33,919 bases of DNA from a virus (IMGVR_UViG_3300027976_000116:1-33919), one strand, 5' to 3'; counted from the first letter of the stretch, positions 13,038 to 33,919 are shown. Notes: a model not told the origin generated them from the letters alone. A program made the numbers and translations.

Positions 13038-13469
13038 TTAATTACCAAATTCCTTAGCAACTTCTTCTGGAGTGGCAAGTGTAATGTGTGATCTAGTTAA
13101 CCATTTTTCAGACTGAGATTTTGTTACAATGTTGATACCTCTATAGACCTTACCAACTTCTCCCCAACTAACATTTTTTGTTGATCTAATAGCAACCTTT
13201 TCTTCTGTATTTGCTGCTACCTTAGACTTTTTCTTTTCTTTTACTAGGGTAGTCATTTCTACTCCAATTGCTCCATTTACAAGACCAAGGCTTTGAACTT
13301 CTATTACTACCTGCTCTGCTGCTACCTGCTCTGCTGCTGCATGCTCTGCTGCTGCATGCTCTGCTGCTACCTGCTCTGCTGCTGCATGCTCTGCTGCTGC
13401 ATGCTCTGCTGCTGCATCTTGTGCTGCTTCATATATAGATTCTTCAACTGCATTTTCATTATTTTCCAT
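13038..13469 (-). CDS. Ala-rich pentapeptide-repeat virion protein of unknown function
   Basis: A 143-residue protein right after the major capsid gene. Residues about 18-55 are a run of five-residue repeats of the form AAAEH or AAAEQV that should form a continuous alpha-helix. They are encoded by an almost perfect 15-bp tandem DNA repeat. The C-terminal about 60 residues (from KVAIRSTKNVSWGEVGKVYR) look like a small compact domain. Its own promoter and an AGGAGG site 8 nt before ATG point to strong expression. The position suggests a capsid decoration, head-fibre or minor capsid protein, but I do not recognise the family. Confidence 0.7.
   Translation of the reverse strand: MENNENAVEESIYEAAQDAAAEHAAAEHAAAEQVAAEHAAAEHAAAEQVAAEQVVIEVQSLGLVNGAIGVEMTTLVKEKKKSKVAANTEEKVAIRSTKNVSWGEVGKVYRGINIVTKSQSEKWLTRSHITLATPEEVAKEFGN
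13311..13430 (-). repeat. 15-bp tandem repeat encoding AAAEH/AAEQV
   Basis: Seven near-identical copies of a 15-bp unit (plus strand: MTGCTCTGCTGCTRC, M = C or A, R = A or G) run from 13311 to 13415. A degenerate eighth copy reaches 13430. The unit is a multiple of three, so copy-number changes lengthen or shorten the helix without breaking the frame. Confidence 0.9.
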
Positions 13470-21812: not shown

Positions 21813-23843
21813 CTACTTGATTTTTATCTCACAGTAGTCTGTTGTACAATAGGCCTCTCCTTGTGCTTCAAGGTTATCAATACCGTCGTAAATTGCAGTA
21901 AAATCAATATGCTTCAACTTGCCAATATATGACTCATACTCTTCTTCAGTAATTCCTGTATATGGTTGTTGTGGATAAACAGTATTACCCATTGGCAAGA
22001 AAGATACAGCCTTTAGTTGTCCCTCATACATATGAAGGACAGGAGCAACATGCTTAGACTCTGTTTCCTTATCAAAGGATAATGTTACAGATACGCCATT
22101 GTCTGACCAGTACTTTTGAGCAGTTGCTGCAAGAGCAATTTTTTCAAATAAAGTAACTTCTTTTTCAGATCTCTGCTCTCCAGTCTTAACTGGAAAATAA
22201 ACTACTGAAGTATTTGCTGAAACAACATCTGCTTCAATCGTATAGTCTGCTGCTTTAAATAAATGAAGCATTGGATCTGTATTTCCAAAACGAATAGCAC
22301 GAAGATAGAATGCTCCACCAGGCCCCCAGTGAACTCCAGGAGTTGCGCCAGAAAGAATTGAAACAGAACCTGAAGGTTTTACAGTTGTTACACGAATTGA
22401 CTCACGAACACATAGCCATTCTGAGTATTTCTTATCGTAATGACGAATCTTTTTATATCCTTCGTCCATCCATTCACGAACTGCTGGTAAACCATTTTCA
22501 TCAGCAAATGATGCAATACCTGTTAAGGATGTTCCAATACGACGATTACGTTGCATGATACCGTTTGTTTGTGGCCAGTGTGTTGGAAGAAGTGTTACAG
22601 TCTTTCCATAAAGATAAGCAAACTTCAATGTCTTGAGGAAGTCCTCCTTGGAGTCGTGACGATTTAAGTGCACTTCTACAAGTGTACATAATTCGTATGA
22701 TTCCAATGGCTGCTCCGCACAAGGATTGAAGCCCATCACTCGATAGTCTTTGCCATCTGCAGGATCTGCAAGACGACCATAATTACGAGCAACATCAAGC
22801 CAAACAAACCCTGGCTCTCCATTGTCAATAATTAAATCTGTATATTTTTCATAATCCATTCCTACCGTTGCAGAAATAGAATTGTTAGACATCCATGCCC
22901 ATCCTGGATTTTCTGAATCAAAAGAGTTACGCTCTGGAAAAACTTCTGCATTCTTTAGATTAATAAAGTTATCATCTTCTGGTGTACCCAAAGCAAGAGT
23001 TGCTGAGCGACGAACATTTCCAGAAACAACACATGTTCCAATAAGGTTAATAATATCTGTGATCCCACGAGAATCTAGAGTCTCCCCTGCTCTAGAGCCA
23101 ATAACCTTGTCGATCTGCTCATGCATACGAATAAGTGGTGCTGGTCCGCTAGCAACCCCTCCAAAGCCTTTAATGGGGGCTCCTAGAGGACGTATCAAGT
23201 CATAGTTAAACTTTTGAATAGACTGGTTTGGTCTTAGGTATGAGTTAATTAAAATACGAACTGATTCTACCCATCCATCACGAGTGTCTGGGATTTCATA
23301 GATCACTTCTGGCTCTGTAGGTTGACAGATTTGAATATTCTTATCCTGTCCTAAAGTGTCAAAGCCAACACCAATTCCAAGCATCAGCGCATCCATTACC
23401 CATGAAAATAAAGCACCTGGATCATTTTTATCAATATCTTTTGTTGATACCATTGCGCAGTTTTGGAGTGCTGCAGAGTTTTTCTTTTCCATTGTCATAT
23501 GTGTTCCAAATGTCCACATGCCACGACCTGGAGGTGTCCACTTTAATTCAAACATTCTTTGAAATGCTTCTTGTGCTGACTTCTGAGCCTTATAGTCATT
23601 CCATGGTAAACGGTTTTCTTTAGCATGATTTTTTTGAACCGAATACATCCCCTCGATTACACGGCGACAAACCTCATGCCATCTTTCTTTAGTTCCATCT
23701 TCTTTCATACGAGAGTATGTACGAATAAAAGTAATCTCTCCAAGTGAATTTTCTGCTGCATCTTTAAACCCAAATGGGCTCGCTTGGTTTTTATACTTTT
23801 CTATAAAGTCCTCTGGTAATTTAAAACTAAAAAAATCTGACAT
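21813..23843 (-). CDS. nrdJ: Class II (adenosylcobalamin-dependent) ribonucleoside triphosphate reductase
   Basis: A 676-residue monomeric reductase that makes deoxynucleotides using vitamin B12 instead of oxygen or a second subunit. Visible catalytic residues match the Lactobacillus enzyme: the redox pair C129 (LQNCAMV) and C386 (YELCTLVE), thiyl Cys C375 with N373 and E377 in FNPCAEQ, and C-terminal shuttle cysteines C666 and C671 in YCTTDYCEIK. The spacing of 11 between the active cysteine and the second redox cysteine equals that in the reference enzyme. The length is near the usual about 740. It needs cobalamin from the host. A promoter and AAAGGAC ribosome site precede the start, and the LamG gene follows after 22 bp. 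Confidence 0.95.
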   Translation of the reverse strand: MSDFFSFKLPEDFIEKYKNQASPFGFKDAAENSLGEITFIRTYSRMKEDGTKERWHEVCRRVIEGMYSVQKNHAKENRLPWNDYKAQKSAQEAFQRMFELKWTPPGRGMWTFGTHMTMEKKNSAALQNCAMVSTKDIDKNDPGALFSWVMDALMLGIGVGFDTLGQDKNIQICQPTEPEVIYEIPDTRDGWVESVRILINSYLRPNQSIQKFNYDLIRPLGAPIKGFGGVASGPAPLIRMHEQIDKVIGSRAGETLDSRGITDIINLIGTCVVSGNVRRSATLALGTPEDDNFINLKNAEVFPERNSFDSENPGWAWMSNNSISATVGMDYEKYTDLIIDNGEPGFVWLDVARNYGRLADPADGKDYRVMGFNPCAEQPLESYELCTLVEVHLNRHDSKEDFLKTLKFAYLYGKTVTLLPTHWPQTNGIMQRNRRIGTSLTGIASFADENGLPAVREWMDEGYKKIRHYDKKYSEWLCVRESIRVTTVKPSGSVSILSGATPGVHWGPGGAFYLRAIRFGNTDPMLHLFKAADYTIEADVVSANTSVVYFPVKTGEQRSEKEVTLFEKIALAATAQKYWSDNGVSVTLSFDKETESKHVAPVLHMYEGQLKAVSFLPMGNTVYPQQPYTGITEEEYESYIGKLKHIDFTAIYDGIDNLEAQGEAYCTTDYCEIKIK

Positions 23844-23877
23844 AGTGTTTCGTCCTTTCTAAAACGGAATAAGGTTA

Positions 23878-23886
23878 AGTATAGCA
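23878..23886 (-). promoter_or_regulatory. Extended -10 promoter of the reductase gene
   Basis: The minus strand reads TGCTATACT, 34 nt upstream of ATG 23843. An 8-bp inverted repeat abuts it on the upstream side. Confidence 0.55.
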
Positions 23887-23910
23887 GAGTTTTATAAAAA
23901 ACAAAACTCT
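23886..23910 (-). promoter_or_regulatory. Inverted repeat abutting the reductase promoter (operator or weak terminator)
   Basis: AGAGTTTT pairs with AAAACTCT across a 9-nt AT-rich spacer. The right arm ends on the first base of the TGCTATACT box. It lacks the GC-rich stem of a strong terminator, so a repressor or sensor binding site is an alternative. It also lies after the short-chain dehydrogenase gene and could end that transcript. Confidence 0.4.
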
Positions 23911-23972
23911 ACCTAAAGTTATTGTTTATGGTTAGTTTTATAAAAGTGTAACCCAATATATTTTTTATAAAG

Positions 23973-24044
23973 TTATGCAAGTTTATATTCTGTTAAGAAG
24001 TCTTGCACCTCATAGACATCATCATATAATTTATTTATATTCAT
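23973..24044 (-). CDS. Possible 23-residue peptide
   Basis: A short frame (MNINKLYDDVYEVQDFLTEY plus KLA) starts 5 nt after the stop of the dehydrogenase/reductase gene. Its composition is protein-like, with alternating charged and hydrophobic residues suited to an amphipathic helix. No ribosome site is visible, so it would rely on coupling to the gene before it. The 206-bp gap that contains it otherwise holds the reductase promoter and an inverted repeat. This could be a remnant or chance. Confidence 0.3.
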   Translation of the reverse strand: MNINKLYDDVYEVQDFLTEYKLA

Positions 24045-24049
24045 TTTGT

Positions 24050-24718
24050 TTACATATACTTACTGTTAGATATGTGGCTAACCTCTAGATGGTTAATATT
24101 AAAATGTTTAGGTAGAGATCCTACCCATCTAATTGTTTCTGCCATATCTTCTGCAGTTAAAGCATTCTCCTTCTTTTCAATTTGAGTATCTATTGTGCCT
24201 GGACAAATTTCTGTTACTTTAATTCCGTACTCTGGAAACTCCATTCTCATAGTATCAACCAAGGCCATTTCACCTCTTTTTGCATTACTATAATTTCCCC
24301 CGCCTCTAAATGGTATTTTTCCACATAGAGAGGTTATAAATATAATTGTAGCAGATTGTGATTTTTTCATAGATGGCACAAATAATTGAGATAAATACAT
24401 TGGTCCAGACACATTAATATCGTATGCTCTTCTAAAATTATCCATAGTTTCATTAATAATAAAAGTTGGACCTGAGCCACCACCTGCATTATTTACTAAC
24501 AGGTCTAGGGTAATATCTTTATATTTTTCAAAAAAGTTTTTTATTTCTTTTTCTTGAGTAATATCTAATTGATAGACTTCCACATTTTCAGAGACAAGAT
24601 TAGAAATTTTGCTAAGATCTCTTGAAACAGCAATGACCTTGTATCCATTTTCAGATAAAAGTTTTACAGTCGCATATCCAACGCCTTTACTAGCACCAGT
24701 AACTATAGCAGTTTTCAA
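24050..24718 (-). CDS. Short-chain dehydrogenase/reductase (SDR)
   Basis: A 222-residue classical SDR, an NAD(P)-dependent alcohol/ketone oxidoreductase. Visible motifs are the cofactor loop TGASKGVG (residues 7-14), NNAG (76-79), and the catalytic Ser130 with Y143-x3-K147 (YSNAK). The start codon is TTG at 24718 (M-KTAIVTGAS), the usual distance before the Gly loop; no ATG or ribosome site is seen, so it may be coupled to the preceding dioxygenase gene, 5 nt upstream. It closes the dioxygenase island, so oxidation or reduction of a hydroxylated product is one possible role. Many SDRs act on sugars or lipids, so the substrate is open. Confidence 0.9.
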   Translation of the reverse strand: MKTAIVTGASKGVGYATVKLLSENGYKVIAVSRDLSKISNLVSENVEVYQLDITQEKEIKNFFEKYKDITLDLLVNNAGGGSGPTFIINETMDNFRRAYDINVSGPMYLSQLFVPSMKKSQSATIIFITSLCGKIPFRGGGNYSNAKRGEMALVDTMRMEFPEYGIKVTEICPGTIDTQIEKKENALTAEDMAETIRWVGSLPKHFNINHLEVSHISNSKYM

Positions 24719-24723
24719 TTATT

Positions 24724-25410
24724 TTACATATCTTTTTTTATAGTCATATTATTGTGTATCCAGTGTCCTGGAATCATATACTTAAATCCTGATTTTAAAA
24801 GATGCGCTGTATGATAATAAGGAGCAGCAGATGGAAATATAACAATACTTCCTGCTTTTGGTTTTATTGAAAAATCAAAAGAGTTATTATTTTTTGCAAG
24901 TTCATGATCTAATTCAGTTGAAGGTTTGTTGGAATAGTCAGACATCTTAAAAGACAATTCTCCTCCTTCGTAGTCATCATTAAGATAAATATTAAAAGAA
25001 TATCTTAATGTTACATCTCCATCATTTTGATCAAAGTGTGCTCCCATACCCATTCCAGAATTATATTTTTTTATATTAAAAACTGGGAAAAGGTTTGGTT
25101 CATCTTTGTCTCCTAAAGATTCAGCATAATCTTTGCAAACAGCATAAAAAGAATCAAAGATTGTATTATAAACATACAACATTTTACTTTTGTATGGCTC
25201 ACTCATACTATTGATTTTATTTAAATCATAAGTTTTTGTTTTTCCATATATAAATTTTTTATCATTTGAAGCAGTCCAGTCTAGCCATGAAGTTAGATTG
25301 TCTTCTTTTTCCATATTATCAAGATCGTTAATAGTCTTCATCAATTGATCAAAGTCTTTTACACTATCTTCATAGTAATAAACCTTTTCATCAAATATTT
25401 TTTTATTCAT
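24724..25410 (-). CDS. 2-oxoglutarate/Fe(II) dioxygenase 9 (prolyl-hydroxylase-like, Lys type)
   Basis: A 228-residue P4H-like dioxygenase. Iron ligands are H125 and D127 in GAHFDQ and H200 in YYHTAH. K210 is 10 residues after the distal His, the position that binds the 2-oxoglutarate carboxylate. The double-stranded beta-helix core carries the family's YLNDDYEGGELSF. A Ser/Asn-rich insertion of about 25 residues (near 158-180) separates that strand from the KPKAGSIVIFPS strand. The N-terminal 90 residues are helical and may recognise the substrate. It starts at ATG 25410 with AAGGAG upstream, 11 nt after the previous dioxygenase gene. Confidence 0.88.
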   Translation of the reverse strand: MNKKIFDEKVYYYEDSVKDFDQLMKTINDLDNMEKEDNLTSWLDWTASNDKKFIYGKTKTYDLNKINSMSEPYKSKMLYVYNTIFDSFYAVCKDYAESLGDKDEPNLFPVFNIKKYNSGMGMGAHFDQNDGDVTLRYSFNIYLNDDYEGGELSFKMSDYSNKPSTELDHELAKNNNSFDFSIKPKAGSIVIFPSAAPYYHTAHLLKSGFKYMIPGHWIHNNMTIKKDM

Positions 25411-25421
25411 TTTTTTCTCCT

Positions 25422-26081
25422 TTAGTATTTATTTTTTTCATAAAAATTTTTTTCTTTAACAAATCCTACTAGAACATATCTTGTTGGACCATCACCAACA
25501 TATTTTACACCATGTTCGTATTCTTCTGTTCCTGGAAAAAACAAAAGAGTTCCTGGTTTTGGCTTTAATTCTATTCCTAGTTTTGGAAAAAAAATGTTTC
25601 CTTCGGAATAGTCGTCATTTATATAAACAATAGTAGCATACCTAATCGATGGGTCAGTGTGTTGATCTGTGTGTGATTTTAATTCAACTCCACTCTGCAT
25701 TCTTTGAATTGTAGCAAGACCGCTTAATTCTAAAGAATCGTATGACTCTGATATCATAGAGTTTAGTTTATTGTATATTGGTCTGTATATTTCATGATTA
25801 GTTATGTTAAAATTTTTATCTAACCAGTTTTGAGTAATCTCAAATTTTCCTTCAGCAACAAGATTATCAACATCCTCTCTGCCAAATTTTTCTAAACAAA
25901 AAGTTTTTAAATTTCCCATGTATTCTACTTCCCAGTCTGACTGAGATGTATTGTTTATTATTTTCCAAAAAACATCTAAATCTTCTTTTAATAAAAAATT
26001 TTCAACAGATATTAAACTATCTGTAATTTCTTTAAATTTAAAACCATTTTGTATTAATTGTTTTTTAAAAGAATCAAGCAT
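25422..26081 (-). CDS. 2-oxoglutarate/Fe(II) dioxygenase 8 (Arg type)
   Basis: A 219-residue member. Iron ligands are H137 and D139 (SHTDQHTD) and H190 (YEHGV). The 2-oxoglutarate anchor is R201, here 11 rather than 10 residues after the distal His because of one extra residue in the loop (GDGPTRYV). The strand usually reading NDDYEGGEL is NDDYSEGNIFF. It overlaps the previous gene by 8 nt (ATGCTTGA), so the two are coupled. A helical N-terminal domain of about 120 residues precedes the core. Overall it looks intact and catalytically competent. Confidence 0.87.
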   Translation of the reverse strand: MLDSFKKQLIQNGFKFKEITDSLISVENFLLKEDLDVFWKIINNTSQSDWEVEYMGNLKTFCLEKFGREDVDNLVAEGKFEITQNWLDKNFNITNHEIYRPIYNKLNSMISESYDSLELSGLATIQRMQSGVELKSHTDQHTDPSIRYATIVYINDDYSEGNIFFPKLGIELKPKPGTLLFFPGTEEYEHGVKYVGDGPTRYVLVGFVKEKNFYEKNKY

Positions 26082-26832
26082 CTTTTACCTTATCTGCTTT
26101 ATATTTATTTCCGTCTTTATCTAATTTCCATCCTTGCTTAAGCAACTCTTGCCATTCGGCTCTTTCAATATCTTGTTTTGCTCTGGTTTCTTTCATCTCT
26201 GCTGCCCAAGCGTCTCTTAATTCTTGAGGGTAAGCGCTTTCTTCTCTGTCATCCCAGAATGAACCAATCGTGTACCTAACACCTTCTGTAATTAAAGATA
26301 CTTCATGCATATTATTAAATCCACCGTCAAAAACAGCAAGCATTCCAGTTTCAGGAGTTATTGTAATATCTTGATTTGGAAATCTTAATGTTCCTCCTTC
26401 AAAATCTCTGTTCAAATAAAGAAATGCAGCATACCTACTTCTTGTAAATGCTCCAGAGTTTCCTTCTGCATCTGTATTGTCTGAGTGTATTCTTGCGTAT
26501 GCTCCTGGCTCCCATTTTTGTGTATGGTATCCAATTTCAGAAATTATAGAGGGATCTTTATCGTGAACGGAGGCAATGCCTTCAATGATCCCAGTTTTAA
26601 TTTGAGAAAAAATATCTGCAGGAAGACCTTCTTGTTCAATCTCTAAATCATTATCTTGTGGCAATATTGATGAGTAAGACTCATAAAATGAAATTGGAGT
26701 CCAGTTAATTTTACTAGAGATTGCCTGCTTATCTAAGACATTAATTATTTTTTGGCATTCTTCATGAGTTAAAATATTTTCATATAAAACAATGTCTTTT
26801 GTTAATCTTTTTTTGTTTGACAAATTTATCAT
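26074..26832 (-). CDS. 2-oxoglutarate/Fe(II) dioxygenase 7 (Arg type, C-terminal extension)
   Basis: A 252-residue member. Iron ligands are H116 and D118 (ARIHSDNT) and H176 (NNMHEVSL), and R186 is the 2-oxoglutarate anchor. The core contains YLNRDFEGGTLRFP. About 55 extra residues follow the core, highly charged and helical (WAAEMKETRAKQDIERAEW), an extension its siblings lack that may bind a partner or substrate. It starts 2 nt after the preceding stop, without a clear ribosome site, which suggests coupled translation. Confidence 0.88.
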   Translation of the reverse strand: MINLSNKKRLTKDIVLYENILTHEECQKIINVLDKQAISSKINWTPISFYESYSSILPQDNDLEIEQEGLPADIFSQIKTGIIEGIASVHDKDPSIISEIGYHTQKWEPGAYARIHSDNTDAEGNSGAFTRSRYAAFLYLNRDFEGGTLRFPNQDITITPETGMLAVFDGGFNNMHEVSLITEGVRYTIGSFWDDREESAYPQELRDAWAAEMKETRAKQDIERAEWQELLKQGWKLDKDGNKYKADKVKDA

Positions 26833-26834
26833 AT

Positions 26835-27584
26835 CTACACCCCTAGCCTTGGATTTAATCTAGCAGATTCTTCATCTGTTAAAAATATTCTGTAATACTC
26901 TTCTGATGCATCTGGTTGTTTTTTTCCAGTATGTTCAGTTATTTCCCAAAAAAATGGACAGGTATATCTTATTGAACCTTTTACTTCTGTTACTCCATGA
27001 ACATAGTTCATATCCCCTGGAAAAAAATATGCTGCACCTTTTTTTGGCTTAAACTTAATTCCCTGATGAGGAAAATATAATTCTCCACCCTCATAATCAT
27101 CGTTTAAATAAAACAAGCTAGATAAATCATAGTTTGGAAAATCATTTGGCAATCCTGCATCTCTACCCTCATGAAGTTCTTTGTCTGCATGAGGATTTTG
27201 AAATTGTCCTGGAAGCCACCTGACTATAGTTGTTCCCGTTGGAATAACTTTAACATTAAAAAATTCTTCAACTATTGGTTTTAGCCTTTTAAATAGTCCT
27301 GCAATAATGGGAGCAATTGTTGGGTCATTTTTATTTAAAGTTGGACTGGTTGCAACTCTATCTTTCCAGTACTCGGAATCATAAACTACTGTTCCATTTT
27401 CATTAATATGACTTTCTGTTACATCCCAAATAGTAATTTTTTTTGCAGCTTTTTCTAAAAACTCTATCTCATCGCTTGTCATAAAGTTTTCTAGCTCAAC
27501 AATATTTTCTTTGCCGCTTCCAAAAAATCCTGATGGAGTAATTGATGCTATTCTATTTACAAGCAAAGGATTATTATTATTCAT
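26835..27584 (-). CDS. 2-oxoglutarate/Fe(II) dioxygenase 6 (Arg type)
   Basis: A 249-residue member. Iron ligands are H132 and D134 (NPHADKE) and H196 (YVHGVTEV), with R206 as the 2-oxoglutarate anchor. The core strand NDDYEGGELYFPHQGIKF is very close to the family consensus. A longer frame from 27620 exists, but ATG 27584 is preferred because a TGGTATAAT box lies exactly 6 nt before it, fitting a leaderless mRNA. The stop codon of the preceding gene is part of that same promoter box. It is the first gene of a second transcription unit in the island. Confidence 0.88.
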   Translation of the reverse strand: MNNNNPLLVNRIASITPSGFFGSGKENIVELENFMTSDEIEFLEKAAKKITIWDVTESHINENGTVVYDSEYWKDRVATSPTLNKNDPTIAPIIAGLFKRLKPIVEEFFNVKVIPTGTTIVRWLPGQFQNPHADKELHEGRDAGLPNDFPNYDLSSLFYLNDDYEGGELYFPHQGIKFKPKKGAAYFFPGDMNYVHGVTEVKGSIRYTCPFFWEITEHTGKKQPDASEEYYRIFLTDEESARLNPRLGV

Positions 27585-27590
27585 ACTAGT

Positions 27591-27599
27591 ATTATACCA
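27591..27599 (-). promoter_or_regulatory. Extended -10 promoter overlapping a stop codon, leaderless start
   Basis: The minus strand reads TGGTATAAT. The TAA inside the box is the stop codon of the preceding gene, and 6 nt separate the box from ATG 27584. It provides a fresh start for dioxygenases 6-9 and the SDR. Confidence 0.65.
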
Positions 27600-28305
27600 G
27601 ATTTCTTTTATCGTTAACATGGAGTTTTAAAGTTTTTGTTTCATGGTTGCCCAAAGACTCTCCATTTTCATTTACAGCGTTTCTATACCAGTCTGTCCAT
27701 TCCCCTGATTGATTTAAAACTTGTGATGCCTCCCCATAACTTTTATTAGCCTTTTCCCTTGTTCTATTTTTATCAGCGTACTCAACTATATCTATTGTTG
27801 AATTATCTAAATTAGTTAAAGAAATTGGAATAAGTGTGGCAAGAGGTGTTCCTGCTTTTATCTTTACTTTTTTATGTGCAGACTTTACCTTAATTGCAAG
27901 AGGTAGAGGATTACCATAAAATGATGTACTTATTAAAGATGACATGGTTTCAAAGTCTTCATTAAAATAGTTTACGGGGTTAATAGATAAAAGGCTTACC
28001 TGCTCATCTGTTTTAAAAATTAAACCTGTGTTAAAACTAAGTGTTGCCTGGCCCCTTCCTGTGTAACATACACTTTGGCCATTAAGGATAGAAACATTAT
28101 TGTCGCCTTGATCACTTATACCATTCCAAGTAAAAATAATATCAAGGGAGCAAGATAGATCCCATCCAACCATATTTGCCTGAGTTACTGGAAAGCAGCG
28201 ATAGGCATGTTTCTCTGAAGTCTTGTCCATCCAATCTCTTTTAATTGACATAGGGGATATATCAATTTTTGAATCTAATGTTTTTTCAACAGAAATATTT
28301 AACAC
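27592..28305 (-). CDS. DUF6065-like beta-rich protein of unknown function
   Basis: A 237-residue protein without the dioxygenase iron signature. It reads like the DUF6065 family known from phages and oxygenase gene clusters: AYRCFPVTQANMVGWDL near 34-50, then a Trp-Asn-Gly turn (FTWNG), a GRGQATLSF strand, a FKTDEQVSLLSINP strand and KIKAGTPLATLIPI near 150. The match is from memory of the family's appearance. It starts with GTG overlapping the previous stop by one base (TAGTG). Its place inside the dioxygenase operon suggests a partner or substrate-handling role. Confidence 0.65.
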   Translation of the reverse strand: MLNISVEKTLDSKIDISPMSIKRDWMDKTSEKHAYRCFPVTQANMVGWDLSCSLDIIFTWNGISDQGDNNVSILNGQSVCYTGRGQATLSFNTGLIFKTDEQVSLLSINPVNYFNEDFETMSSLISTSFYGNPLPLAIKVKSAHKKVKIKAGTPLATLIPISLTNLDNSTIDIVEYADKNRTREKANKSYGEASQVLNQSGEWTDWYRNAVNENGESLGNHETKTLKLHVNDKRNLV

Positions 28306-28961
28306 TAGTCTGAATCCGAAACATACATCTGGGGGGTGTGAAACTTTTCATTATAATCTAGCATTGTTACAATAGAATACTTTGTTCCAGAATGAACCTC
28401 CATAGCTTGATGTGGGTACATAAAGTTTGAGGGGAATATGTATAAATCTCCAGCCTGTGGTTTTACTTTTAAATTTTGCAGCCTAAAATAAAGCTCTCCC
28501 CCTTCATAGTCATCATTTACATAAGCAACTAAAGATACTGTGCAGTTATAAGAAAAACCATGATCATGGTGCTCCATAAAGTGCTGTCCTGGACCATACT
28601 TAATAAAATTAAAAGCTTCCCAGTATTTTAACCCATTAATGTTATAGTGTTTTGCATAATCTTCAACGGCTGGGCTTTGAGCATCATAAACATCTTGCCA
28701 TAGTGACTGAAGGTTTAAAGATACGGGCCTTTTATCCTTTTCAATATCTATTTTCTTAAATTTAAAATCATTACAGTCTCTATACTCTGGCATTAACTGC
28801 TGATATCCTACGTATGCTGGAAGCCAACTATATCCCGTCTTATCTCCAACTGGTTTTAAATTCTGTTCAAGTTTATTAATTACATCGATTTCTTTTTTAA
28901 TTACACCTTTGTAGCAAATGATGCCATTGCCCAAATCAATCTTTTCTGTCCATGTTTGCAT
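28305..28961 (-). CDS. 2-oxoglutarate/Fe(II) dioxygenase 5 (Lys type, paralogue of dioxygenase 1)
   Basis: A 218-residue member. Iron ligands are H131 and D133 (MEHHDHGFSY) and H184 (YPHQAMEV), with K194 as the 2-oxoglutarate anchor. It closely resembles the first dioxygenase of the island (32153-32842): both share an N-terminal TWT...DLG opening, a RDC-x-DFK motif, GFSYN-x-TVSLV and KPQAGDLYIFPS. A longer frame from 29021 would overlap the preceding gene by 50 nt. ATG 28961 is preferred because it aligns with the paralogue and has AAGGA 7 nt upstream. A TGGTAAACT box inside the preceding gene (29054-29062) could be an extra promoter. Confidence 0.88.
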   Translation of the reverse strand: MQTWTEKIDLGNGIICYKGVIKKEIDVINKLEQNLKPVGDKTGYSWLPAYVGYQQLMPEYRDCNDFKFKKIDIEKDKRPVSLNLQSLWQDVYDAQSPAVEDYAKHYNINGLKYWEAFNFIKYGPGQHFMEHHDHGFSYNCTVSLVAYVNDDYEGGELYFRLQNLKVKPQAGDLYIFPSNFMYPHQAMEVHSGTKYSIVTMLDYNEKFHTPQMYVSDSD

Positions 28962-28971
28962 AACATATTCC

Positions 28972-29763
28972 TTATCTATACTCTCTCTTTGACCATATCT
29001 TATTCTTATATATCCCGCCATCAGGCTGACGATAAAAGTTTGCGTTCTCTACTAGTTTACCATAAATTTTGTTTTGATTTGACACTTCTATTTGGTGATC
29101 CCAGTCTTCTCTTTTAAATGGAAGAATTTGCAAGTATGGGGTTCCAGCAGGAATGGTTCCTTCCCAACCATTAGCAACAAAAAATGGAAATGTTCCAAGA
29201 ATATGCACTTTATCAGAGTCAACAATACCTGTTGTGTTCATAAATGGAAGATCAAACCTGTTCATGGGTGTCATAAATAAAGCACTGTAGCCATCTGGAA
29301 GCTCTAGGCCCCATTCAGAATACCAAGCAAAGTGATCTTTATAAAACCCTGCAGGGTGTTGAAACTGTGGCATTTCTGGTCTTTGCGTGCAAAAATCCTT
29401 ATACTTTAGATCATCTATTTTTACATCAATCTTTTCTTGTTGATTTATAAAAAAGGTAATATCGCATGGTGTTTTTAAAACATATCCAGTTAAGAAACCA
29501 TCTAAAATTGCAGGACAAGCTTTCCAAGTAGGAATTTTGCCGTAGTCATCAACCGTACCTTCTTTAGGGAATGGACAAACTTCTTTAGTAGCTTTATAGT
29601 ATTCATCTGTGTATGGGTTTTTTGCAAATCTATCAGCATCCTTATACCAATTCGGAAGTACAGACTGAGTTGAATCGGGCATGTGGGGACTGTCTTTTTT
29701 AATCCAAGGTCTATAAGATTTAAAGATAATTAAATTTTTTATTTTTTGAGATGGATCACTCAT
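28972..29763 (-). CDS. Unknown beta-rich partner protein in the dioxygenase operon
   Basis: A 263-residue protein without an HxD...H signature. It has many aromatic residues and prolines (SVLPNWYKDADRF near 33, then GFYKDHFAWYSEWGLELPDG), and a C-terminal part, NGWEGTIPAGTPYLQILPF, that echoes the AGTPLATLIPI strand of the DUF6065-like neighbour. The two may be distant relatives with the same jelly-roll strand order. It starts one base after the preceding stop and precedes dioxygenase 5 by 10 nt. I do not recognise the family with certainty; a cupin-like or substrate-presenting protein is possible. Confidence 0.75.
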   Translation of the reverse strand: MSDPSQKIKNLIIFKSYRPWIKKDSPHMPDSTQSVLPNWYKDADRFAKNPYTDEYYKATKEVCPFPKEGTVDDYGKIPTWKACPAILDGFLTGYVLKTPCDITFFINQQEKIDVKIDDLKYKDFCTQRPEMPQFQHPAGFYKDHFAWYSEWGLELPDGYSALFMTPMNRFDLPFMNTTGIVDSDKVHILGTFPFFVANGWEGTIPAGTPYLQILPFKREDWDHQIEVSNQNKIYGKLVENANFYRQPDGGIYKNKIWSKREYR

Positions 29764-29764
29764 C

Positions 29765-30490
29765 TTATTTATGGCCTATATCATTTATGTCTGTCATAAC
29801 GACTACGCAGTATTTTGTTCCAGAAACCATGGGTAGGGATGCGTGCTCATATATATAGTTAGAGGGACATAAAACAATATCTCCAACTCTTGGCTTATGT
29901 GTAAAGTTGTCCATTCTCGGAAATTTTAATTCGCCTCCTAAATAGTCATCATTGATGTAAACAACTGCAGAAACTGTACAATTATATGCAGGTCCGTGGT
30001 CTGCATGAATATTGAAGTGTGTACCCTCTCCTTCATACTTTACAAAATTAAATGCTTCATAATACACAACATTAATACCCCAATACCCAGCATAGTCATC
30101 TACACAGTATTTAAGTTTTTGATAAATTTCTTCATGGAGATCTAACAACTCCTCGTTAGTACTATTTCTTGCACCAAGATTTTCTTGTTTATATTTAAAA
30201 TCTACACAGTCTCTTGCTTTCTTAATTGGAGTTGTAGAATTTGTTACTGTTGCTTCTGACCACTTATACGTTTTTTTTTCATTTAAGTTTGACTCAAGAG
30301 TTTTAATATATCTTTCAGAGTCCTCTTGAGAAAAGGTATTTCTATAAATATTAATGCCAAGAGAGGGATTTTCAACAATAAAACCATTTTCTAAAACTTT
30401 TGAAGCAAATCTGTTACTTGACGTCTCAGACCTATCTTTTAAAAACCAAGCATTATTATTTTCATCATACGGCTGATCTACTAAATTCAT
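29765..30490 (-). CDS. 2-oxoglutarate/Fe(II) dioxygenase 4 (Lys type)
   Basis: A 241-residue member. Iron ligands are H162 and D164 (NIHADHGPAY) and H216 (YEHASLPM), with K226 as the 2-oxoglutarate anchor. It belongs with dioxygenases 1 and 5 in sharing RDCVDFKYK (residues 93-101) and the YNCTVSAVVYINDDYLGGEL core. It has an extra N-terminal segment of about 40 residues. An AAGGAG ribosome site and a TGGTAAACT box 35 nt upstream of ATG mark the start of a transcription unit. The 104-bp gap upstream holds only that promoter. Confidence 0.88.
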   Translation of the reverse strand: MNLVDQPYDENNNAWFLKDRSETSSNRFASKVLENGFIVENPSLGINIYRNTFSQEDSERYIKTLESNLNEKKTYKWSEATVTNSTTPIKKARDCVDFKYKQENLGARNSTNEELLDLHEEIYQKLKYCVDDYAGYWGINVVYYEAFNFVKYEGEGTHFNIHADHGPAYNCTVSAVVYINDDYLGGELKFPRMDNFTHKPRVGDIVLCPSNYIYEHASLPMVSGTKYCVVVMTDINDIGHK

Positions 30491-30525
30491 TTTTATCTCC
30501 TTAAATATAATTCTTGATACTTACT

Positions 30526-30534
30526 AGTTTACCA
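30526..30534 (-). promoter_or_regulatory. Extended -10 promoter before dioxygenase 4
   Basis: The minus strand reads TGGTAAACT, 35 nt from ATG 30490. A TTGACA hexamer lies upstream but only 10 nt from the -10 core, too close for standard -35 spacing, so it is probably coincidental. Confidence 0.5.
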
Positions 30535-30594
30535 CTATTTTTGTCAAATGTGGTTTTCTAAATTTTTAATAATCATATTTATCTTCTTTTCTTT

Positions 30595-31077
30595 TTATTT
30601 TTCATCTCTAATAAAGGTAGTAAGCGTATACCTTTCTCCGTCTGTAACTGGTAGCACTGTATGCGTGTACTCCAAACTTGATGGATGAATTACTAGTTGA
30701 CCAGATTTTGGCTGATGGGTTAACCCTAGATTTTTATAAAATATCTGACCTCCTAAAAAATTATCATTAATATATAAAACAACTCCATATTTAATTCTTT
30801 GATCTTTGTTGCTATCAAAATGATCTTCCCAAACCGTTTCTTTGTCCGTCATATTTATATGTCTCATTATTTGAGTATGAAAACTTTTATCAAACAATAG
30901 TTCTATTCTAGATTTAATATTTTTCATAAGCTTGTGTTCATTTGAGTTTAATATTTTAGTCTTAATATAGTTGTCCTTTTGTTTAAACTCTTTATGTCTT
31001 TTCTTGCATTCATTAGTTAAATACTTTATTTCTTTTTTTGACAAAAAATCATTAATTATTAATATGTCGTTATCCAT
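30595..31077 (-). CDS. 2-oxoglutarate/Fe(II) dioxygenase 3 (Arg type, compact)
   Basis: A 160-residue protein, the shortest intact member of the set. Iron ligands are H86 and D88 (WEDHFDSN) and H139 (YTHTVLPV), with R149 as the 2-oxoglutarate anchor. It consists of the catalytic core plus only about 80 lead residues. ATG 31077 overlaps the previous stop by one base (TAATG), which is preferred over a TTG at 31089 lying inside the upstream gene. The gene is coupled to dioxygenase 2. Confidence 0.86.
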   Translation of the reverse strand: MDNDILIINDFLSKKEIKYLTNECKKRHKEFKQKDNYIKTKILNSNEHKLMKNIKSRIELLFDKSFHTQIMRHINMTDKETVWEDHFDSNKDQRIKYGVVLYINDNFLGGQIFYKNLGLTHQPKSGQLVIHPSSLEYTHTVLPVTDGERYTLTTFIRDEK

Positions 31078-31637
31078 TATCTCATCCAACTTGCTATTGA
31101 GTATCTTGTTCCTTTTGTAACTTCCGTCACAAAATGAGAAAAAACGTAACTAGAAGGAAACACAACCATATCTCCAGATTCTGGTTTAATTTTTACGTCA
31201 AAGTTTTTAAAATGTAATTCTCCACCCTCATAATTATCGTTTAAATAAAAAATAGTTGATATTCTTTTAAAATTAGCTCCCCCATCATCCATATGCAAGT
31301 CAAACTTCCCTCCTACTTCATATTTTAATATTTTATATGGGTCTTTAGATCTAAGGGCAACGTTATACTGAGAACAATAGTCTTTCTCTACTCCCCCTAA
31401 CAATACATTTAAATTATTGCATAGGATATTTAGTGTATCTGAACTATCTTCATTTACTTTTCTAGGAACATTAAAAGCTAAAGTGTTTCTAGTATTCTTG
31501 TCTAGCTCAAGAATACCATTTTTTTGTATATACTCAAACTTCCAAAGATCTTCAGGTATATTTTTAATATTTTTTAAAATTTGAGTATCTATACCTTTAT
31601 ATAAAATTATTCCTGGATAAAGTTCTACACTATTCAT
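31077..31637 (-). CDS. 2-oxoglutarate/Fe(II) dioxygenase 2 (Arg type)
   Basis: A 186-residue member. Iron ligands are H115 and D117 (DLHMDDGG) and H168 (FSHFVTEV), with R178 as the 2-oxoglutarate anchor. The core carries FYLNDNYEGGELHF followed by KPESGDMVVFPSS. It overlaps the upstream gene by 8 nt (ATGAATAG) and the downstream gene by one base, so three consecutive genes are translationally coupled. The length is close to the minimal P4H catalytic unit. It ends ten residues after the anchor, with no C-terminal extension. Confidence 0.87.
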   Translation of the reverse strand: MNSVELYPGIILYKGIDTQILKNIKNIPEDLWKFEYIQKNGILELDKNTRNTLAFNVPRKVNEDSSDTLNILCNNLNVLLGGVEKDYCSQYNVALRSKDPYKILKYEVGGKFDLHMDDGGANFKRISTIFYLNDNYEGGELHFKNFDVKIKPESGDMVVFPSSYVFSHFVTEVTKGTRYSIASWMR

Positions 31638-32127
31638 AATATTTTCTTAAAAATTTACTCATAAACCAATTTGGATACATCTTGTTTCTTTCTTTTGACC
31701 AAAACATACATATGGCATATACATCTTTGTTGTTATAGATAGAACTCAATAAGTCTTTGTTATTATCAAAAATAAATGTTTTTCCTTCATTGTCACCAGA
31801 TAAAAATGTAACAGTTTTACAAATAAAAGATTTTGTATTTTTTGTTTCTAATACTGAATCTTTGTTAATTTTTACCAACTGAGAGTAATCTGGAAATATA
31901 GTATCAGAAATATCAAATAAATTAGATACGGACAGTTGTAGGCTAAGTCCAAACTCTTCTAAAAATCTTTGAAGAATGCGACTTACTTTATAAACAAAGT
32001 CTACATCAATATAAAAAGTAGACCAGTAGTTTGTATTTCTTCCAATTTGCCAATTATCTATTTTTAATAAATTTTCATTGACATCTATAAGTGTATTTTT
32101 ATCAATAATATTGTCTACTAAAATCAT
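31630..32127 (-). CDS. Probable degenerate (pseudo-enzyme) relative of the dioxygenases
   Basis: A 165-residue protein in the same coupled gene string. It contains TVTFLSGDNEGKTFIFDN, which lines up with the siblings' FYLNDNYEGGELHF strand, but it has no HxD before it and no distal His or Arg/Lys anchor after it. The first half (NWQIGRNTNYWSTFYIDVDF) is short and helical/beta mixed. If the relationship is right, it has kept the fold and lost the active site, as scaffolding or regulatory pseudo-oxygenases do. The start at ATG 32127 has AAGGAAG upstream, 25 nt after dioxygenase 1. An unrelated small protein is the alternative. Confidence 0.6.
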   Translation of the reverse strand: MILVDNIIDKNTLIDVNENLLKIDNWQIGRNTNYWSTFYIDVDFVYKVSRILQRFLEEFGLSLQLSVSNLFDISDTIFPDYSQLVKINKDSVLETKNTKSFICKTVTFLSGDNEGKTFIFDNNKDLLSSIYNNKDVYAICMFWSKERNKMYPNWFMSKFLRKYYE

Positions 32128-32152
32128 TTATACTTCCTTATTGTATTGTTTC

Positions 32153-32842
32153 TCATTCGTCTGCCGAATAAAACCTTGAACTGTGAAACTTGGAGTTGTA
32201 GTCCAACATTGTAACTATAGAATATTTTGTCCCATTAGATACTGGCATAGCTCTGTGTGGATGAGTAAAAGAAGATGGGAAAATATATAAATCTCCTGCT
32301 TGGGGCTTTAAGTTTAAGCCTTGTAATCTAAAATAAAGCTCTCCACCATCAAAATTATCATTTAAATATCCAACTAAAGATACTGTAGAGTTATATGAAA
32401 ATCCATGATCTACGTGCTCTTGAAAATGTTGACCTTCTCCATATTTTACAAAATTCATTACTTCCCAATATTGCAAATCAATAATTTGATTTTTGTAACA
32501 ATAGTCTTGAGTTGCTTGATACATCCTATCATAACAATCTTGCCATATCTGCTTTAATTCTTCAGTATCTGGATCTACTGCGTGCAGGTCTTCTTTCCTG
32601 TATTTAAAGTCTACACAGTCTCTATACCCTGGAACTTTTCTACTATAGCCAACTAAAGCATCTTGCCATTTGTATTTATTATCACTAAAAATAACTTTTT
32701 CAAGTCTATTAATTATGTCCATTTCTGGAGTATAGATATTCCTGTAAACATAAATACATTGTCCAAGATCCTCAACAGCAGTCCAAGTATTTATAATCAA
32801 ACCTGGATCTACTGCCTCTGGAACTACTTTTGACTTATACAT
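32153..32842 (-). CDS. 2-oxoglutarate/Fe(II) dioxygenase 1 (prolyl-4-hydroxylase-like, Lys type)
   Basis: A 229-residue dioxygenase and the first of the island. Iron ligands are H143 and D145 (QEHVDHGFSY) and H196 (HPHRAMPV). K206, ten residues on, is the 2-oxoglutarate anchor, the same His-to-Lys spacing as in animal collagen prolyl-4-hydroxylase. Upstream of the core is RDCVDFKYRK (74-83), shared with dioxygenases 4 and 5. Enzymes of this fold hydroxylate protein side chains using O2 and 2-oxoglutarate, with Fe(II) bound. A promoter and GGAAG ribosome site precede the start. The gene directly upstream encodes the proline-repeat/Hint protein. Confidence 0.9.
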   Translation of the reverse strand: MYKSKVVPEAVDPGLIINTWTAVEDLGQCIYVYRNIYTPEMDIINRLEKVIFSDNKYKWQDALVGYSRKVPGYRDCVDFKYRKEDLHAVDPDTEELKQIWQDCYDRMYQATQDYCYKNQIIDLQYWEVMNFVKYGEGQHFQEHVDHGFSYNSTVSLVGYLNDNFDGGELYFRLQGLNLKPQAGDLYIFPSSFTHPHRAMPVSNGTKYSIVTMLDYNSKFHSSRFYSADE

Positions 32843-32863
32843 AGAACTTCCAATCTTTATTCT

Positions 32864-32872
32864 AGTATATCA
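32864..32872 (-). promoter_or_regulatory. Extended -10 promoter of the dioxygenase island
   Basis: The minus strand reads TGATATACT, 21 nt from ATG 32842, just after the stop of the Hint-domain gene. It separates control of the island from the fibre gene. Confidence 0.55.
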
Positions 32873-32882
32873 TAAAAGCTTT

Positions 32883-33919
<1,037 letters not shown>

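Follow-up and report, generated by a model that had tools for sequence, protein, structure and literature searches.

Nine genes for 2-oxoglutarate/Fe(II) (2OG-Fe(II)) oxygenases lie between positions 24724 and 32842 of a viral DNA record (IMGVR_UViG_3300027976_000116:1-33919), all on the minus strand. The window analysed here is the whole of that record, a complete IMG/VR entry of 33,919 bases that carries portal, S78 protease and capsid genes and is probably a piece of a larger tailed phage genome. The array and its flanking genes are given below in the direction of transcription.

32883-33917, minus strand: virion protein with proline-rich repeats and a Hint-like domain (C-terminal part only), putative substrate; cluster c0, common to relatives
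32153-32842, minus strand: 2OG-Fe(II) oxygenase 9, 229 amino acids; PF13640, 59.1 bits; H143/D145/H196/K206
31630-32127, minus strand: orphan c9, 165 amino acids, conserved in cassettes; no family match
31077-31637, minus strand: 2OG-Fe(II) oxygenase 8, 186 amino acids, modelled; PF13640, 67.6 bits; H115/D117/H168/R178
30595-31089, minus strand: 2OG-Fe(II) oxygenase 7, 164 amino acids, shortest of the nine; PF13640, 37.7 bits; H90/D92/H143/R153
29765-30490, minus strand: 2OG-Fe(II) oxygenase 6, 241 amino acids; PF13640, 38.3 bits; H162/D164/H216/K226
28972-29763, minus strand: DUF6065-like protein, type b; phrog_7084, 110.6 bits
28305-29021, minus strand: 2OG-Fe(II) oxygenase 5, 238 amino acids; PF13640, 54.4 bits; H151/D153/H204/K214
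27592-28305, minus strand: DUF6065 protein, type a, with a predicted beta fold resembling dUTPases; marks tandem arrays; PF19541, 106.7 bits
26835-27620, minus strand: 2OG-Fe(II) oxygenase 4, 261 amino acids; PF13640, 39.3 bits; H144/D146/H208/R218
26074-26832, minus strand: 2OG-Fe(II) oxygenase 3, 252 amino acids; PF13640, 38.5 bits; H116/D118/H176/R186
25422-26081, minus strand: 2OG-Fe(II) oxygenase 2, 219 amino acids; PF13640, 39.2 bits; H137/D139/H190/R201
24724-25410, minus strand: 2OG-Fe(II) oxygenase 1, prolyl-4-hydroxylase (P4H)-like, 228 amino acids; PF13640, 41.2 bits; H125/D127/H200/K210
24050-24718, minus strand: short-chain dehydrogenase (SDR) closing the cassette, a recurring neighbour (c5); PF00106, 150 bits

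The oxygenase array and its enzymes

Intergenic distances within the array range from -50 to +104 bases, an operon-like arrangement. The initial annotation, made from the sequence alone, had called the genes nearly contiguous; contiguity is not strict, because the oxygenase genes are interrupted by two genes of the DUF6065 family (27592-28305 and 28972-29763) and by an orphan (31630-32127). A second contig, IMGVR 3300007722_002441, matches positions 23468-33000 at 99.79% identity over 9533 bases, gap-free; the array is therefore real, and an assembly artefact was rejected. Near-identical DNA was sought in isolated phages and none was found, and tRNA and Rfam searches across the window returned nothing. 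Relatives of the window's capsid occur on contigs of >100 kb, its nearest cultured relatives being Streptomyces phages at ~40%. When the array was sought on other contigs, as the initial annotation had advised, 5-11 oxygenase copies were found on many viral contigs, and the description of an array "in one phage" was thus too narrow.

Profile searches, likewise advised, placed all nine proteins above the gathering cut-off of PF13640 (2OG-FeII_Oxy_3; 27 bits), with scores of 37.7-67.6 bits. HxD, the distal His and the Arg/Lys anchor are kept in all nine, as had been claimed, and the catalytic residues are kept in 66 of 66 sequences of alignment A3 (63 with HxD, 3 with HxE). The anchor is the 10th residue past the distal His in eight of the nine and the 11th in 25422-26081; the predicted eight-of-nine pattern is right, and the "ten residues between" given for it reflects a counting convention, the number actually lying between being nine (ten in 25422-26081).

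An AlphaFold model of oxygenase 8 (31077-31637), built from 66 aligned sequences, reached a confidence score (pLDDT) of 96 and has the double-stranded beta-helix fold, matching P4H structures at Z ~20. Its nearest solved folds are almost exclusively protein prolyl hydroxylases: an algal P4H with bound (Ser-Pro)5 (PDB 3gze; Z 21.0, root-mean-square deviation 2.1, 170 aligned), the Pseudomonas putida P4H–EF-Tu complex (Z 20.6), chlorella-virus vCPH (PDB 5c5t; Z 17.8) and OGFOD1 (Z 17.4), with the algal P4H, the P. putida P4H and the PHDs spread over ~1 Z unit. This supports a P4H-like assignment for oxygenase 8, for which peptidyl-proline hydroxylation is predicted. The label "prolyl-hydroxylase-like" given to the whole array accordingly holds for the iron-site residues in all nine proteins and for the fold in the one modelled. 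Matches to Tet_JBP (PF12851) did not exceed 20.6 bits against a cut-off of 34.9, which places the enzymes outside that nucleic-acid dioxygenase family; some of them match phrog_2297 and phrog_274, and PHROGs labels include DNA endonuclease.

Algal P4H acts on proline-rich cell-wall proteins; it is the closest solved fold, tied with others, and differs from the modelled oxygenase in being eukaryotic and only 19% identical. Substrates of vCPH are proline-rich repeat peptides, and we know of no tandem array for it. This enzyme of Paramecium bursaria chlorella virus 1 (PBCV-1) resembles the modelled oxygenase in being a virus-encoded P4H of the same fold and differs in belonging to an alga virus (Eriksson et al. 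1999, as cited in PMC7019647).

Nine copies are not unprecedented, because published cyanophages have 24 (S-SCSM1; PMC9602691) and nine (S-SZBM1; PMC9146016), with no function assigned to the copies in either report. Both resemble the present phage in encoding many divergent PF13640-type paralogues, and S-SCSM1 has a run of four oxygenases directly before its tail-fibre genes. They differ in phage lineage and in having their copies scattered or in shorter runs, and no F/P-rich repeat (F, phenylalanine; P, proline) was seen in the S-SCSM1 fibre and virion proteins checked. The array had been called exceptional, which applies to its tight tandem layout and not to its gene number; no published account of so large and compact an array enclosing DUF6065 was found.

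Linkage of the array to F/P-rich repeat genes

The gene at 32883-33917 lies 40 bases upstream of the array in the direction of transcription and runs off the window. It encodes proline-rich repeats (PIPAPFFPPIPAPFF) at 33369-33593 and 33708-33791, followed by a Hint-like region at 32886-33368 for which Pfam Hint/intein matches were below cut-off, and it matches phrog_38766, "virion structural protein", at E 3.6e-8. The Hint-like (intein/hedgehog-like) region begins right after the repeats with a Cys codon at ~33366-33368 and ends in HNK; self-cleavage there would make the repeats a new C-terminus, perhaps for attachment. In relatives, the corresponding protein carries FFPPFFPP or FFSPPGFFAPPG repeats along with fibronectin-III domains, and its gene adjoins Mtd_N-type fibre genes, with 15-51 bases separating it from the first oxygenase in several cases. 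Repeats are of the FFPP, PPGFF, PIPAPFF and FPVDPG types, about equally rich in Phe and Pro, and proline is common to all four. The repeat protein of one locus (L187, 2793-4307) had no match in isolated phages with the low-complexity filter on.

Viral contigs were searched by repeat DNA patterns alone, with oxygenases ignored. Downstream counts were taken over loci followed by 3 kb or more of sequence, a locus being scored when a same-strand oxygenase lay within 3 kb; all counts of repeat loci given here and below are among the matches listed. An oxygenase was found downstream of 56 of 69 FFPP and 37 of 40 PPGFF loci, and upstream of only 2 of 46 and 0 of 38, respectively. Control repeats gave 0 of 41 (PEPE, acidic proline) and 3 of 41 (GPQG, collagen-like) downstream. 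F/P repeats differ from controls at p <1e-14 by Fisher's test, in which the loci are not independent; when similar loci were merged, the oxygenase was present in 36 of 49 FFPP and 24 of 26 PPGFF clusters. The PEPE control was unmatched for environment, and a lineage-matched set picked by capsid was therefore also used. Among its 25 records, an F/P repeat occurs in all 4 with tandem arrays (G006, G009, G018 and G024) and in none of the 21 others. The repeat of G006 is a variant, PFFPYFPPYFPP, missed by the exact pattern, and G023 has six scattered oxygenases and no repeat. The array is thus specifically linked to F/P-rich repeat genes.

Paralogue ages and accessory genes

A tree built from 86 array members groups the window's paralogues with array genes from equivalent positions on other contigs; they form orthologue groups common to contigs such as G009, G018, G024 and G047, with identities to these counterparts of at most 82%. 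Within the window, identity to the first paralogue of the alignment is 23-31%. Recent tandem duplication was rejected on this low identity to the compared paralogue and because most paralogues have their own orthologues elsewhere. Between G031 and G034, the ratio of nonsynonymous to synonymous divergence (dN/dS) of orthologues was 0.015-0.15 where dS could be estimated, dS being near saturation; in relatives the paralogues thus persist as orthologues, subject to purifying selection. The paralogues are old, distinct and retained, and separate roles are therefore favoured over recent amplification. The earlier suggestion of one chemistry applied to several substrates or sites would fit such deep, conserved divergence.

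Of 23 records with at least 5 oxygenases, 19 have a DUF6065 (PF19541) match above its cut-off, whereas none of the 22 remaining records has one; the records are not independent. A DUF6065-family gene is also present in 48 of the 56 FFPP and all 37 PPGFF loci with an associated oxygenase. The model of the type-a protein (27592-28305) matches dUTPases at Z 9.4 (root-mean-square deviation 5.3, 104 aligned). The type-b protein (28972-29763) had no PF19541 match and is tied to DUF6065 through phrog_7084 and a purpose-built profile only, one profile seeded with both types recovering both. The context of DUF6065 in bacteria was uninformative, with a single Verrucomicrobia match. Homologues of type b (~27-29%) occur in the haloarchaeal tailed viruses HF1, HF2 and HJTV-3; in HJTV-3, genes for tail-fibre/adhesin proteins and for a class II ribonucleotide reductase lie close by.

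The orphan (31630-32127) has relatives in a similar place in PPGFF-type cassettes (L180, L181, L183 and L185). Its TFLxGxxE stretch resembles the oxygenase motif YLNDDYEGG, in a profile comparison that was not significant; a decayed oxygenase was considered and is unsupported (hhalign probability to the oxygenases, 8%).

PF11397, which we take to be the family of the Skp1 hydroxyproline N-acetylglucosamine (GlcNAc) transferase Gnt1, was found in 9 of 45 records and not in the window record, a fragment; in G028, G031, G032 and G036 it is located within the fibre module or close to it. A true PF11397 transferase domain was present at 7 repeat loci and at none of the controls. A broader spread of PF11397-like proteins among the repeat loci was rejected, most being a separate small zinc-ribbon protein. 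Such 4-Cys zinc-ribbon proteins of 65-86 amino acids recur with F/P-repeat genes (L387:1580-1777, L389:838-1038, L321:12426-12680 and L252:885-1145), and the same zinc ribbon is fused N-terminally to a PF11397 transferase in L180:4495-5679. In the Skp1 pathway of Dictyostelium and Toxoplasma, the prolyl hydroxylase PhyA acts first and Gnt1 then adds GlcNAc to the hydroxyproline (PMC11570480). The likeness lies in the PF11397 proteins within fibre modules of some of these phages and the difference in their restriction to a minority; the data are suggestive only of glycosylation in some of these phages.

Elsewhere, the SDR gene occupies the same place in L193, L194, L195 and L197. A class II (B12-dependent) ribonucleotide reductase (21813-23843) adjoins the cassette, and the ribonucleotide reductase cluster is likewise beside the arrays of G006, G009, G018 and G024. 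Immediately downstream of the capsid gene, 13038-13469 encodes a small protein with AEHAAAEQVAAEH repeats.

A proposed role in fibre maturation and its alternatives

The initial annotation had left the substrate open, and the linkage tests indicate the proline-rich fibre protein encoded next to the array. The array is probably a virion-maturation cassette that hydroxylates this F/P-rich protein, with DUF6065 as an accessory. In this reading, the leading gene of the cassette encodes a tail-fibre repeat protein rich in proline and phenylalanine, and the P4H-like oxygenases that follow it on the same strand would hydroxylate repeat residues, most likely prolines, with 2-oxoglutarate and oxygen. 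The many paralogues would differ in the repeat context or nearby fibre protein that they recognise and would not be redundant copies. Hydroxylation may make the repeat stalk stiffer or more stable, or create sites to which sugars are attached, and DUF6065, with its dUTPase-like fold, would serve as an accessory protein. A more elaborate form, about which we are more tentative, is a dedicated hydroxyproline-rich fibre system comprising the F/P-repeat protein, sequence-specific P4Hs and the DUF6065 helper, followed in some phages by O-glycosylation, comparable to the hydroxyproline-rich glycoproteins of plants and algae or to the Skp1 pathway.

Several points weigh against the fibre-maturation proposal. 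Linkage is itself no proof of substrate, and fibre loci may be collectors of cargo genes. The repeat can occur without an oxygenase nearby, since 13 of 69 FFPP and 3 of 40 PPGFF loci have none within 3 kb downstream, and the capsid-matched test is weakened by the many fragments among its 21 array-less records. The fold evidence comes from one modelled oxygenase of nine; moreover, the P. putida P4H is equally close in fold and was solved with EF-Tu, and the fold therefore cannot name the substrate. PBCV-1 encodes a P4H, yet its purified particles are without hydroxyproline, as cited in a chlorovirus review. Finally, nine enzymes for one substrate calls for explanation.

The EF-Tu complex (Z 20.6) also favours the strongest of the alternatives, that the enzymes hydroxylate host proteins (EF-Tu, ribosomal or surface proteins) for takeover of the cell, with the fibre locus serving as a cargo site; OGFOD1, a ribosomal prolyl hydroxylase, is a further fold match (Z 17.4). 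This is unlikely in view of a linkage that is specific to F/P-rich repeats (3 of 41 for collagen-like genes) and directional (56 of 69 downstream against 2 of 46 upstream), and of the absence of arrays from capsid-matched phages without the repeat.

Somewhat less probable still is that the fibre is modified otherwise, at another residue or, in some relatives, on a collagen-like fibre at the other flank. Substrates vary across the PF13640 class and Phe is about as abundant as Pro in the repeats, whereas proline is the residue shared by FFPP, PPGFF, PIPAPFF and FPVDPG and the closest solved folds are prolyl hydroxylases. In L181, L183 and L185 the array is bordered on its opposite side by a collagen-like protein that has an S74 chaperone domain and is a possible second substrate; that of L181 (4816-5967) has Gly-X-Y repeats.

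Action of the divergent oxygenases on a small molecule, lipid/glycan or nucleic acid is improbable: the phrog_2297 and phrog_274 labels, the adjoining SDR gene and older cyanophage proposals of DNA repair or 2OG draw-down (PMC3037559) would agree with it, whereas Tet_JBP matches fall far under cut-off, the best folds are protein prolyl hydroxylases, and the linkage to the repeat protein is left unexplained.

What is new is the array's specific association with DUF6065 and with a fibre protein carrying repeats, not the copy count. No report of proline hydroxylation in phage fibres was found in the literature searched, which took in few subscription papers. The linkage supplies a concrete candidate substrate, by which the question becomes directly testable. 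If the fibre-maturation proposal is true, these phages would have their own post-translational hydroxylation for building fibres, reliant on oxygen and 2-oxoglutarate.

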